47,202 bases of DNA from Nitrospirota bacterium (GTDB lineage Bacteria > Nitrospirota > UBA9217). Location: assembly GCA_029858565.1 (NCBI GenBank), contig JAOUEV010000026.1:1-47202 (forward strand), in the 5' to 3' direction. The position numbers were made by a program, and so were the translations under genes. The notes under the pieces were generated by a model. It saw only the letters and a list, made by a program, of their open reading frames with translations, ran no database searches and had not been told where the DNA came from. Shown here piece by piece: positions 23,835 through 28,569 of this stretch; positions within the stretch are counted from its first letter, which is position 1, and every line of letters starts with the position of its first letter.

Positions 23835-24482
23835 ATGGGCGTTATCAATATTATGATCGTGGACAGCGACCCTGTACAGCTCGAAAAATTGTCCGCCTCT
23901 TTTGGTGCTTCACAGGATATTCGTGTCATATCATCGGTCTCCAAACGCGAGACCGCCATCAAGCAGCTTTCCCTGGAGCCGCAGGTGATCATCCTGAATC
24001 CCGATATTCTGAAACAGCGCACGCTTTCCCGTTTTCTCAGGTCGCTTCAGTGCAAACTGCCTATGACCCGGGTTCTCATGGTACATGCATCCCGGCCTGA
24101 TGATGAGGTCCTGATCGAGGAGATCCGTCTCGGTGTCCGGGGGTACCTTCGCGCATCCGATCCTGCGGCAATGCTGGCCAAGGCTGTGCGCTCTGTTGTC
24201 TCAGGAGAGATCTGGGCGGAACGGCGCATCCTGGAAAAGACCATTGCAAAACACATGTTGATGCCTGATACGCTCAGGGAACGGGTGCCGGACCTTGATC
24301 CGCTTACCAGCAGGGAAATGGATATGCTCACCATGGTCATGAAAGGTTCTTCGAACCGTGAGATCGCTGAACAGAGCAATATCAGCGAGCGGACCGTCAA
24401 GACCCACCTTTATCGGGTATATCGCAAACTCAAAGTGAAAAGCAGGGCAAAGGCAATCGCGCTGTTGTCGCACACATCCTAG
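23835..24482 (+). CDS. LuxR/NarL-type regulator with a degenerate receiver domain
   Basis: A 215-residue transcription regulator. Residues about 5-125 have the receiver fold (IMIVDSDPVQLEKL with the acidic pair D10/D12), but the phosphoacceptor position reads VIILNPDIL: Asn55 replaces Asp. The conserved Lys after GYL is also missing (GYLRASD). Residues about 150-210 are a NarL-type helix-turn-helix (LTSREMDMLTMVMKGSSNREIAEQSNISERTVKTHLYRVYRKL). It is therefore probably not controlled by a histidine kinase, and may respond to a ligand or partner protein. No sensor kinase lies nearby. It has its own promoter and AAGGAG ribosome site. Confidence 0.88.
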   Translation: MGVINIMIVDSDPVQLEKLSASFGASQDIRVISSVSKRETAIKQLSLEPQVIILNPDILKQRTLSRFLRSLQCKLPMTRVLMVHASRPDDEVLIEEIRLGVRGYLRASDPAAMLAKAVRSVVSGEIWAERRILEKTIAKHMLMPDTLRERVPDLDPLTSREMDMLTMVMKGSSNREIAEQSNISERTVKTHLYRVYRKLKVKSRAKAIALLSHTS

Positions 24483-24690
24483 CCCTGTCGACGCATTCCA
24501 TCAAACTCCCTGGCTAATTCATGAGAATTTCGTGCCGTGGAGAGCACTGTTCCCGTCAGGCTGATGATGTAAAGTCAAGGGATGATGCTCTTGTATGATT
24601 CAGGAACGTAATACAAGGTTATTCCTCGCTTACGAAGAAACCTATTTCCCGTTATATTCTGCAATTCCATAAAATACGAACTTAGGTCCA

Positions 24691-24718
24691 TTGACACCCG
24701 CAGGGGTACTGCTATGAT
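24691..24718 (+). promoter_or_regulatory. Sigma70-type promoter upstream of a candidate structured RNA
   Basis: A perfect TTGACA (24691-24696) and TATGAT (24713-24718) are separated by 16 bases. No open frame follows for more than 300 bases, which suggests that the product is RNA. The predicted start is near 24725. Confidence 0.6.
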
Positions 24719-24724
24719 TGATGC

Positions 24725-24890
24725 AAACGGCGACGCTGTGCGCCGCGGGGATCAGTCCGCACCCTTCATCCCTCTCATCATCCTATCCCCCCCAAGGAAG
24801 GCTGCGGAAGATGTGGTGAACTGATACCCTGCGACGCGGGTGAGCATAAGGTGTTCCATCACCCCAGTATCTTGATGTGACAGCGTTGCT
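24725..24890 (+). ncRNA. Candidate structured non-coding RNA of about 165 nt
   Basis: The stretch after the promoter has nested complementary segments. P1: CGACGCTGT (24731-24739) with ACAGCGTTG (24880-24888). P2: GCGGGGATCAGT (24745-24756) with ACTGATACCCTGC (24820-24832), 12 pairs with one bulged A. P2 is extended by CCGCA (24757-24761) with TGCGG (24803-24807). P3: GGGTGA (24838-24843) with TCACCC (24859-24864). The apical loop is C-rich. A closing stem, a terminal stem and a small hairpin on the 3' side of the middle resemble 6S RNA layout and size, but I do not recognise conserved 6S sequence. No signature of tmRNA, RNase P, SRP or a known riboswitch was seen. Confidence 0.5.
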
Positions 24891-24893
24891 TAG

Positions 24894-24949
24894 GGCGTCC
24901 CGATGTTCGGATGATCATCATGATACTCCGTCGAGAACATCGGGACGCC
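24894..24949. repeat. Perfect 15-base inverted repeat upstream of xerD
   Basis: GGCGTCCCGATGTTC (24894-24908) is exactly inverted at 24935-24949, with a 26-base loop that holds a further ATGATCAT palindrome. There is no T-run after it, so it is not a standard terminator, although it could end the RNA just upstream. It could also be a protein-binding or recombination site; it shows no attC or dif core I can point to. Confidence 0.65.
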
Positions 24950-25001
24950 GTGTTCTTGCAGCAGATTCGCTCGCACTTTCCCGCACGATTTCCTGCACTT
25001 C

Positions 25002-25030
25002 TTGCAATCCAGCCGGTTATCACCTACAAT
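25002..25030 (+). promoter_or_regulatory. Promoter of xerD
   Basis: TTGCAA (25002-25007) and TACAAT (25025-25030) are 17 bases apart, giving a start near 25037. Confidence 0.6.
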
Positions 25031-25065
25031 AGAAGCAATTGATGGTTTTCTCTTCTCCTCATACT

Positions 25066-25947
25066 ATGAAGGACGATCTGCTTCGCCGTTATATCGACTA
25101 TCTTGCCGTGGAAAAAGGGCTTTCCAAGAACACCCTTGAGTCCTACGGCCGCGACCTGAGAGGATATTTCCTTTTTTTTAGGGACCGGGAAGCAAAAAGC
25201 ATCGATAAAAAGGATATCGAGGTTTTTCTTGGTTCACTTTCAACTGCAGGGATCGCGGCACCTTCCATCGCGAGATGTTTAGCCGCCGTGCGGGGATTTC
25301 ACAAGTATCTTCTCATGGATGGTCTGTCGGACATCGACCCGACTTCCGCCATAGAGGCGCCGCGCGGCTGGAAACGGCTGCCCAAGACGCTTAACGGGGA
25401 AGATGTGGTCTCACTGCTGAACCAGCCCGATCTGAGCAATCCCCGGGGTCTTCGCGACAAGGCCATGCTCGAACTTCTTTACGCGACCGGCCTCAGGGTG
25501 AGCGAACTGGTCGGCTTGAACGTTGCCGACGTGAACCTGGAACGGGGCTTCCTGATCGTGGTCGGGAAGGGGAGCAAGGAGCGTATCGTTCCCCTCGGCG
25601 AGATCGCCGCAGGCCACGTGCGGGCCTATGTCGAACGGGGACGTCCTCTCCTGATGCGCGGTCATCAGGCTGATGCGCTCTTTGTGAGCAACCGGCGGCA
25701 TGGGTTGACGCGGCAGCTTTTCTGGGAACGGATCAAGCACTATGTGGCCAAGGCGGGCATCAGCAGCAAGGTCTCACCGCACACGCTCCGCCATTCCTTT
25801 GCCACCCATTTGCTCGATAATGGCGCTGACCTTCGCGCGGTACAGGCAATGCTCGGTCACGCGGATATCTCAACAACGCAGATATACACCTATGTGTCAC
25901 GCGAACGGCTGAAGCAGATCCACGAGAAGCACCATCCGAGAGGGTGA
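25066..25947 (+). CDS. xerD: Site-specific tyrosine recombinase XerD
   Basis: Cytoplasmic recombinase that with XerC resolves chromosome dimers at dif. Residues about 1-90 are the SAM-like core-binding domain (LLRRYIDYLAVEKGLSKNTLESYGRDL). The catalytic domain carries the R-H-R-H-Y set: ATGLRVSELVGL (Arg), SPHTLRHSFATHLL (His-x-x-Arg), LGHADISTTQIYTYV (His and the nucleophile Tyr). ATG 25066 matches the usual family start (MKDDLLRRY), but has no clear ribosome site. ATG 25042, in frame and only about five bases after the predicted transcription start, is the alternative. The stop is adjacent to the ATG of the next gene, so the two are co-transcribed. Confidence 0.93.
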   Translation: MKDDLLRRYIDYLAVEKGLSKNTLESYGRDLRGYFLFFRDREAKSIDKKDIEVFLGSLSTAGIAAPSIARCLAAVRGFHKYLLMDGLSDIDPTSAIEAPRGWKRLPKTLNGEDVVSLLNQPDLSNPRGLRDKAMLELLYATGLRVSELVGLNVADVNLERGFLIVVGKGSKERIVPLGEIAAGHVRAYVERGRPLLMRGHQADALFVSNRRHGLTRQLFWERIKHYVAKAGISSKVSPHTLRHSFATHLLDNGADLRAVQAMLGHADISTTQIYTYVSRERLKQIHEKHHPRG

Positions 25948-28569
25948 ATGATGGACATCATCACCAGCCATACGAACGCTGATTTCGACGCACTGGCCTC
26001 CATGGTCGCGGCGAAGAAGCTCTATCCCGAGGCGAAGATCGTGTTCGCCGGTTCCCAGGAGAAGAGCATGCGCGACTTTTTCCTTGATTCAGCGGCCTAT
26101 GCTGTCGAGACGGAGCGGCTGCGCAATATCGATGTGTCGGCGGTCACGCGACTGATCATCGTGGACAATCGGAACCCCGGCAGGATCGGAAAACTGGCTG
26201 AGGCGCTTGACCGGCCGGGCCTGTCCGTGCATATCTACGATCACCATCCTGCCGTGCCCGGGGATATTCGCGGCGAGCTCGAGGTCATCGATGAGGTTGG
26301 GGCGACGACCACACTCATGGTCGAGATCCTGCGCAAACGCGATATCCCCATCGCCCCGTTCGAGGCGACCATACTCGCCCTGGGGATTTACGAAGAGACC
26401 GGTTCTCTGACCTATGTTTCGACCACGAGCCGTGACGCTGAGGCGGCAGGGTATCTCATCGGAATGGGCGCGAATTTGAACGTAGTGTCTGACTTCATCT
26501 TTCGGGAACTGACGCCTGAACAGGCCATGGTCCTGAACGAGCTGATCGAATCGGCGAAGCGCTATGATATCAACGGCATTCCCGTGGTTATTTCGGCCCT
26601 GTCCACGCCGCATTTCCTTCCGGATATCGCGGCGCTGGCCCACCGGATACGCGACCGCGAGAACATCGATGTGCTCTTTCTTGTCGTGCAGATGAGCGAC
26701 AAGACCCATATTATCGGTCGGGCCCGGGTGCCGTCTGTGCACGCGGGCAGGGTGCTCGAGGCGTTCGGAGGCGGCGGGCATATGACCGCCGCCTCTGCCG
26801 TGGCGCGGGACATGACGCATCTGGAGGCGCGGGAGAAGCTGATCGACGCTTTGAAGCGGCACATCAAGCCGGGAAAGACGGCAGCGGATATCATGACCGC
26901 GCCGGTCATGACCATATCCGCCAATGGCACGATCGCAGAGGCGGGAGAGGACATGACCCGCTTCAGCGTCAATGTTCTGCCGGTGCTTGAGGAGGAACGA
27001 TTCCTCGGCATCATCACGCGTGAAGTAGTGCAAAAGGCGCTGTTCCACGGACTAGGGGACCACCGGGTGACCGAATTCATGTCAACCGGAGTGCCTGCGG
27101 CGAGTCCGGGCATGCCCATGACGCGGGTCGAGCAGACCATGCTGGAGGAAGGACAGAGATTCATGCCGGTCGTTGGTGAGAGCGGCGCCATCATCGGCGC
27201 TATAACACGCACGGACCTCCTGCGGTCGCTCCAGGAACAACGGTTCGCTCCTGAGGCATCAGCGGGAGAATTGGGCCACCGGCCGGTCAGGAACATGCGG
27301 GGTATGCTTGAGGAACGTCTCCCCCCTGACATCCGGGAAGTGCTTAAATCCGTGGGAGCAATAGCGGACGAATATCGGTATCCGGTTTATCTTGTTGGCG
27401 GAATAGTCCGGGACCTGTTCCTGCGCACGACCAATCCTGATATGGACGTCGTCGTCGAAGGCGACGGGATCACCTTCGCCGGACTGTTGGTGCGAAAACT
27501 TGGAGGCCGGATGAGGACCCACCAGAAATTCGGCACCGCGGTCGTTGTCCTGCCAAACGGCCTCAAGCTGGACATCGCCACGGCGCGGCTCGAATACTAC
27601 GATTCTCCGGCAGCGCTTCCCACGATCGAGCTCTCCTCCATAAAGAAGGACCTTTACCGCAGGGACTTCACGATCAATACGCTGGCAGTGCGGCTGAACA
27701 AGGCCCAGTACGGCGAATTGATCGATTTTTTTGGAGGTATGCGGGACATCAAGGAGCGGACCATCCGCATCCTGCACAATCTATCATTCGTCGAAGATCC
27801 CACACGGGTCTTCCGGGCGATACGGTTCGAACAGCGCTTCGGTTTTCAGATCAGCAAACATACCCAGAATATGATCAAGACCGCGGTGTCCATGCGACTC
27901 TTCTCCCGGCTCTCAGGCGAGCGCGTCTATGACGAACTGGTGCACATGTTCTCCGAGTTGGACCCGCTGAAGGTACTGAAGCGCATGCAGGAGTTCGACC
28001 TGCTCAAGTTCCTGCATCCCAATCTGCGGTGGGGCGCGCCGCTCGAGCAGCTCTTTGTCCAGATCGGGGAAACGCTCACCTGGTACCGGCTGCTCTATCT
28101 CGACGTTACGGTGGAACGGTGGTTCGTCTATCTGCTCGGGCTGCTGGACAGGGTCAAGGACGACGCCGCCCAGGAGGCGCTGGAGCGCCTTTCCGTACCG
28201 CTGCGGATACGGAACCGCGTCATGGCTGCACGACAGCAGTGCCGTGATATTCTCTACGAGTTCTACCGAGACCCTGACATTCCGGCGAGCAGGGTCTATG
28301 ATCTGCTGAAGCCCCTTGCTATAGAGCAGGTCCTGCTGCTCATGGCCAAGTCCCGGAAGGAAAGGGCAAAAAAGTACATTTCCCTGTATCTGACCCATCT
28401 CCGGAACGTACGGATTTCACTCAGCGGAGAGGATCTGAAGAAGCTCGGCATTCCCCAGGGGCCGAAATACAAGAAGATCCTTGCCGCTCTGCTCGATGCC
28501 AAGCTGGATGGGAAAGTGGCGACAAGGGCGGATGAAGTGCGGTTCGTCCAGCAGCAGTACTTGAAATGA
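25948..28569 (+). CDS. DHH/DHHA1 - CBS pair - tRNA nucleotidyltransferase (A-adding or CCA-adding type) fusion
   Basis: An 873-residue multidomain protein. Residues about 1-300 are a DHH phosphoesterase (TSHTNADFDALASM, IYDHHPAVPG) with DHHA1 (EAFGGGGHMTAASAV). Residues about 310-440 are two CBS domains (ADIMTAPVMTISANGTIAEA, VTEFMSTGVPAASPGMPM), which usually sense adenylates. From about 470 on is a class II nucleotidyltransferase head (VYLVGGIVRDLFLRTTNPDMDVVVEG with the G-G...D-x-D set, KKDLYRRDFTINTLAV, EDPTRVFRAIRFEQRFGF) followed by helical RNA-binding domains. It repairs tRNA 3' ends. In some bacteria such fusions are A-adding enzymes that work with a separate CC-adding enzyme; which activity applies here is undetermined. 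GAGAGG overlaps the xerD stop and serves as ribosome site. Confidence 0.93.
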   Translation: MMDIITSHTNADFDALASMVAAKKLYPEAKIVFAGSQEKSMRDFFLDSAAYAVETERLRNIDVSAVTRLIIVDNRNPGRIGKLAEALDRPGLSVHIYDHHPAVPGDIRGELEVIDEVGATTTLMVEILRKRDIPIAPFEATILALGIYEETGSLTYVSTTSRDAEAAGYLIGMGANLNVVSDFIFRELTPEQAMVLNELIESAKRYDINGIPVVISALSTPHFLPDIAALAHRIRDRENIDVLFLVVQMSDKTHIIGRARVPSVHAGRVLEAFGGGGHMTAASAVARDMTHLEAREKLIDALKRHIKPGKTAADIMTAPVMTISANGTIAEAGEDMTRFSVNVLPVLEEERFLGIITREVVQKALFHGLGDHRVTEFMSTGVPAASPGMPMTRVEQTMLEEGQRFMPVVGESGAIIGAITRTDLLRSLQEQRFAPEASAGELGHRPVRNMRGMLEERLPPDIREVLKSVGAIADEYRYPVYLVGGIVRDLFLRTTNPDMDVVVEGDGITFAGLLVRKLGGRMRTHQKFGTAVVVLPNGLKLDIATARLEYYDSPAALPTIELSSIKKDLYRRDFTINTLAVRLNKAQYGELIDFFGGMRDIKERTIRILHNLSFVEDPTRVFRAIRFEQRFGFQISKHTQNMIKTAVSMRLFSRLSGERVYDELVHMFSELDPLKVLKRMQEFDLLKFLHPNLRWGAPLEQLFVQIGETLTWYRLLYLDVTVERWFVYLLGLLDRVKDDAAQEALERLSVPLRIRNRVMAARQQCRDILYEFYRDPDIPASRVYDLLKPLAIEQVLLLMAKSRKERAKKYISLYLTHLRNVRISLSGEDLKKLGIPQGPKYKKILAALLDAKLDGKVATRADEVRFVQQQYLK

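Follow-up and report, generated by a model that had tools for sequence, protein, structure and literature searches.

The window analysed here is the whole 47,202-nucleotide stretch of a Nitrospirota genome and corresponds to contig C51 of genome G000 (3.92 Mb, 144 contigs). The locus of interest lies between a NarL-type regulator gene, in whose product Pfam recognizes a GerE domain, and xerD (25039-25947), with a Maf-domain gene preceding the regulator (Table 1). A promoter-like site of its own, TTGCAA-17-TACAAT at 25002-25030 (9/12 matches), stands in front of xerD, and a similar promoter-like stretch precedes xerD in relatives that carry no RNA there (e.g. G001). Downstream of xerD, and adjoining it in many relatives, positions 25948-28569 encode an 873-aa protein that combines DHH, DHHA1, CBS, and poly(A) polymerase-type domains.

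Table 1. Features of the predicted RNA gene and its immediate surroundings (positions in the window).
Feature	Position	Strand	Remarks
NarL/VraR-type regulator gene	23835..24482	+	context, not part of the RNA; immediately upstream; directly precedes the RNA in 7/9 members
A+T-rich element CTGCAATTCCATAAAATACGAACTTA upstream of promoter	24659..24684	+	possible activator site or UP element
Promoter TTGACA-16-TATGAT, TG before -10	24691..24718	+	11/12 consensus matches
Predicted RNA gene	24725..24955	+	~225-235 nt; ends deduced from the promoter and terminator signals
P1 closing stem, 5' strand	24729..24739	+	predicted fold, which further pairs 24740-24742 with 24835-24837
P2 terminal stem, 5' strand	24744..24756	+	predicted fold
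P3, 5' strand (hairpin proposed to display the C-rich loop)	24757..24767	+	inferred from relatives
C-rich stretch, proposed target-binding seed	24768..24795	+	inside P2
P3, 3' strand	24797..24807	+	inferred from relatives
P2 terminal stem, 3' strand	24820..24833	+	13 pairs, one bulged A at 24826
Small hairpin, 3' side between P2 and P1	24838..24864	+	predicted fold
P1 closing stem, 3' strand	24880..24890	+	predicted fold, 11 pairs
Terminator-like hairpin GGCGTCCCGATG...CATCGGGACGCC	24894..24949	+	weak T tract in window, 5 T of next 12

A first-pass annotation, made from the letters of this DNA alone, had placed a strong promoter between the two genes, and a consensus scan recovered it at the same position. 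Within 2.2 kb the scan returned four such sites as compared to 1.1 expected in shuffles, the other three having nine matches each. Of the -35 element of the RNA promoter, the letters TTGAC are kept in all nine members of the family described below. Moreover, the 40 bases before the -35 are more alike among members (mean pairwise identity 0.39-0.56 per 10-base step) than the sequence further upstream (0.22-0.30) in a calculation that left out the two close pairs of member loci, L051/L052 and L111/L113 (81% and 95% identical, respectively). By eye, the A+T-rich element in this region is clear in five of the nine members, partial in three, and weak in L050.

The predicted fold consists of a closing stem (P1), a long terminal stem (P2) whose 5' strand starts no more than about 6 nt after P1 in all nine members, with differing letters, and a small hairpin on the 3' side. 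The closing stem proposed in the first-pass annotation (24731-24739/24880-24888) is present, extended from nine pairs to 11, and the long stem with its single bulge likewise stands, with 13 pairs in place of 12. The earlier end of the RNA at 24890, by comparison, was set too early, as a further hairpin follows at 24894-24949 and one occurs there in every member. Fold energies in the window fall below those of dinucleotide shuffles, with z of -2.45 for 24724-24896 and -4.32 for 24724-24970, where the next hairpin is included; against shuffles, P1 to P1' of the window gives z -3.95. The same P1-to-P1' segment folds weakly in L116, L112, and L114 (z -0.19, -1.39, and -1.71), and the interior of P1 folds no better than shuffles in eight of the nine members (z -1.64 to +0.58), L052 being at -3.72. 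None of 300 shuffles equalled the P2 duplex of the window, while in the other members its lead over shuffles is smaller, with 6 to 49 of 300 doing equally well. From P2 to P1 on the 3' side there are 26-41 nt in eight members and 10 nt in L111, whose best duplex includes later bases. The P3 hairpin, whose strands were picked by eye, lies 3.4 kcal/mol above the minimum-energy fold in the window and was for this reason drawn from the relatives; its mean pair probability is at least 0.83 in six of the nine members, 0.47 in L112, and near zero in the window and L050.

The terminator hairpin is followed by at least six T in 12 bases in eight of the nine members. Its 5' arm, GGCGUCCCGAUG, is identical in seven members, and the 3' arm drifts, partly by way of wobble pairs. 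A mechanical terminator scan of the window omitted the hairpin at 24894-24949 because the T tract is poor there (5 T of 12). The sequence nevertheless carries both signals of an independent transcription unit, a promoter and a terminator, the latter with a weak T tract in the window.

Of the 14 genomes that make up the family, nine have homologues. A plain DNA similarity search with the window RNA as query recovered no relatives in 60 other genomes; with the G009 copy as query it recovered G006 and, weakly, G012 within the family. Upstream of xerD, the genomes G012, G009, and G006 share the same promoter, P1, and terminator arm. A covariance model built from these three and the window identified five remote full-length members at E values per genome of 7e-7 to 1.6e-3 (G008, 7.3e-7; G002, 9.2e-6; G011, 3.9e-5; G003, 5.1e-5; G010, 0.0016). 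In each of the five, maf and the NarL-type gene come just before the RNA and an M48 peptidase gene follows it, and since the model holds no gene sequence, this placement is an independent confirmation of the remote members.

We also searched 395 Nitrospirota genomes, drawn from a larger group, and a model search detected the RNA in none of the 381 genomes outside the family. With stricter filters, a sequence-only model (R2) matched 91 genomes at E <=1, of which nine reached 1e-30 and the next stood at 0.001; R2 was trained on eight of the nine members, so that the scores of those eight are high by construction. From this separation and the model searches, the RNA is therefore known from nine of 14 genomes of one family. 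A pattern spanning the junction of P1' and terminator matched only the four close members in the 395 genomes. A search of the phylum with model R1 (stricter filters) listed nine of the 395 genomes, missed four of the nine loci (G002, G003, G011, and G010:C251), and also listed short promoter-like matches in G162, G327, G042, and G010:C120; on reading, G162 and G010:C120 have the promoter but lack the RNA and were rejected as loci. Absence from G004, G005, and G013 is weak evidence because these genomes are 74-85% complete. Within the window genome, a genome and model search found no second credible copy.

Compensatory changes in the closing and long stems had been named in the first-pass annotation as the evidence that would support the RNA, and such changes are present. 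In a model-fitted alignment (A5, n=9), both sides have changed in 10 of the 20 pairs of P1 and P2, and 88.8% of 161 cells are standard pairs, as compared to a shuffled mean of 76.9% (0 of 500 as high); sliding the partner by 1-3 columns lowers pairing to 27.5-53.1%. Because A5 was fitted to the structure of the model and leans towards it, P1 was realigned by its flanking letters. The count in this anchor-based register points the same way as A5: 84 of 96 pairs form natively, against a mean of 77.3 when strands are swapped among eight members, and 0.2% of 20,000 permutations were as good; L113 was dropped as nearly identical to L111 (95%), and L116 pairs at only seven of 12 positions. In the MAFFT alignments A4 and A6, the P1 3' strands of L112 and L114 are placed wrongly.

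These results bear on two simpler readings of the locus. Chance folding of an intergenic stretch would fit the window taken alone, which folds only moderately better than shuffles, and some members, which do not fold better at all, but nine members share a conserved promoter, stems, terminator, and place, and we regard this reading as scarcely credible. A small protein gene is suggested by window ORFs of 28 and 32 codons on the RNA strand; the ORFs find matches, however, only within the close pairs L051/L052 and L111/L113, and the stems covary, which makes a coding function very improbable. The homologues, the pair changes on both sides, and the conserved promoter and terminator sequences bear out the earlier proposal of a structured RNA with its own promoter, and on these sequence signals we consider a genuine independent RNA gene at this locus highly probable.

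Comparison with known families began from the earlier suggestion that the RNA might be either a divergent 6S RNA or a new family, to be checked against Rfam. At gathering scores Rfam gave no match in the window, and none of the eight homologous loci has a match above its gathering score, which favours the second option. At E <=10 the RNA region matched three families weakly and on the other strand (a microRNA, a ribosomal leader, and a snoRNA family), with no 6S match among them. The nearest approach to a known family is a sub-threshold match to BjrC68 (RF02353) in L139 of G010, at 28.3 of 39 bits; unlike in BjrC68, the other stem of the model is unformed, the match rests on the terminator hairpin, and it occurs in one of the eight loci only. 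Weaker overlaps on the same stretch of L139 are to sX6 (17.5 of 40 bits) and suhB (15.5 of 41). Among the matches listed for small-RNA literature on Nitrospir*, there was no description of a similar small RNA.

Two points speak for a diverged or additional 6S RNA (RF00013) that would act on RNA polymerase. The RNA resembles 6S in length and in its outline of a closing stem, a long terminal stem, and a small hairpin on the 3' side, and two 6S matches occur in six of the 61 genomes searched (57 of which have a 6S match at E <=0.001). However, the eight homologous loci have no 6S match at E <=1 (the cut-off of RF00013 is 46.4 bits), and a standard 6S RNA of 89.3 bits lies on another contig of the window genome (G000:C27:51021-51197). 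Moreover, in the predicted folds P2 follows P1 almost without a gap on the 5' side, which leaves hardly any bubble there where 6S has a two-sided central one, and the RNA ends in a terminator-type hairpin. The 6S assignment is thus unsupported and in our judgement improbable. The locus shows that an outline resembling 6S on visual inspection can come from a different RNA, the genome having its own 6S. We instead regard the RNA as a new sequence family, with members known to date from a single Nitrospirota family, whose inferred function would be of a known kind. The family is small and well bounded. It shows compensatory changes, keeps its promoter and terminator, has a regulator gene as neighbour, and is ready for metatranscriptome searches.

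The position of the RNA upstream of xerD in the window and the terminator-like hairpin at its end would also suit a leader or attenuator that acts in cis on the gene after it. That downstream gene, however, is xerD in four members and, by Pfam, an M48 peptidase gene in five, and xerD has its own promoter-like site, with a similar stretch in relatives without the RNA such as G001. Because the downstream gene differs among members and xerD has this site, a cis-acting leader is unlikely, to the point that we give it little weight.

The NarL-type regulator on the other side aligns with VraR and NarL along its length. As printed, the alignment with VraR sets an asparagine in the receiver of the window regulator against a VraR aspartate, which we take to be the phosphorylation site, and the NarL-type protein therefore appears to lack a phosphorylatable aspartate. 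Pfam does not recognize a receiver domain in the window regulator, and in the G003 relative the domain falls below the cut-off. We considered and rejected a strict coupling of gene and RNA: G006 and G009 have the RNA and no NarL-type gene at E <=1e-30, and G001 and G007 have the gene with no RNA match after it. As these last two keep the NarL-type gene without a detectable RNA, the RNA is dispensable. A 36%-identical regulator in G005 is likewise not followed by the RNA. In G007 (L129), where the RNA is missing, a short GGCGCC-type hairpin with a T tract lies 3' of the NarL-type gene, before the next gene, and is possibly a remnant.

We hypothesize that this stand-alone small RNA gene, with its own conserved promoter, closing P1, P2 stacked almost directly on P1, and terminator hairpin, encodes a trans-acting base-pairing RNA. 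Specifically, the C-rich stretch inside P2 would pair with G-rich ribosome-binding sites of target mRNAs and so block their translation, possibly with the assistance of Hfq, which the genome encodes. The neighbouring NarL-type regulator and the conserved upstream element suggest that transcription may be regulated, although, as noted, the regulator gene and the RNA also occur apart. Taken as a whole, with its presumed transcription, targets, and repression, this explanation is in our view somewhat favoured. A pyrimidine run of at least six is present in all nine members with a mean unpaired probability of 0.48-0.88. The C-rich run is more exposed than in shuffles in six members (at most eight of 100 as high), whereas the window (21 of 100), L113 (18 of 100), and L112 (43 of 100) do not stand out in this respect. 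This mixed outcome slightly lowers our confidence in the full explanation. Hfq is encoded by 13 of the 14 family genomes, the window's included.

Small RNAs of this kind have been described in other bacteria. According to excerpts of the report on sX13 of Xanthomonas (PMC3771888), C-rich loops of that RNA repress mRNAs with G-rich motifs near their translation starts, and Hfq is dispensable for it. As far as these excerpts go, sX13 resembles the RNA described here in being an independent structured small RNA with C-rich loops and differs in coming from another phylum and in having a tested function, the sequences of the two having been compared through Rfam alone. Similarly, excerpts on the LhrC small RNAs of Listeria (PMC4132741) describe UCCC motifs, both looped and single-stranded, whose pairing partner is a G-rich sequence ahead of the start codon; there the likeness lies in these motifs, whereas LhrC is multicopy with two stem-loops and our RNA is a single credible copy in its genome.

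If the RNA instead acted on a protein (such as CsrA), by titration or contact, and not by pairing with mRNA, this would account for an overall layout that is conserved while the interior diverges, and for the three members in which exposure of the C-run is not unusual. GGA motifs, however, show no consistent enrichment, with one to eight per RNA as compared to 3.4-4.5 expected from base composition, and we hold protein contact to be a clearly less probable alternative to base pairing.

An extension of the base-pairing reading, which we put forward as a doubtful speculation from the conserved letters, would have the RNA make contact through two conserved parts, the C-rich loop and the terminator 5' arm GGCGUCCCGAUG, as a two-handed regulator tied to the atypical NarL-type protein. 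If true, this arm would provide a second site for recognizing a target, either RNA or protein. Exact copies of the terminator arm number 21 in the 14 genomes, 10 of them at RNA loci (seven arms and three opposite-strand copies of the same hairpins). A genome-wide repeat was considered as an explanation of the arm and rejected, as 11 exact copies of GGCGTCCCGATG lie away from the RNA, against five for a reversed control.

The off-locus copies of GGCGTCCCGATG are in G003:C101; G012:C384, C433, and C504; G006:C101; G009:C75; G008:C242 and C372; G007:C93; and G005:C106 and C222, and may be chance occurrences or possible target sites. In addition to canonical Hfq, 13 of the 14 family genomes have two further Hfq-like matches a few hundred bases apart on one contig (e.g. 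G000:C38:36246-36623 and equivalents).
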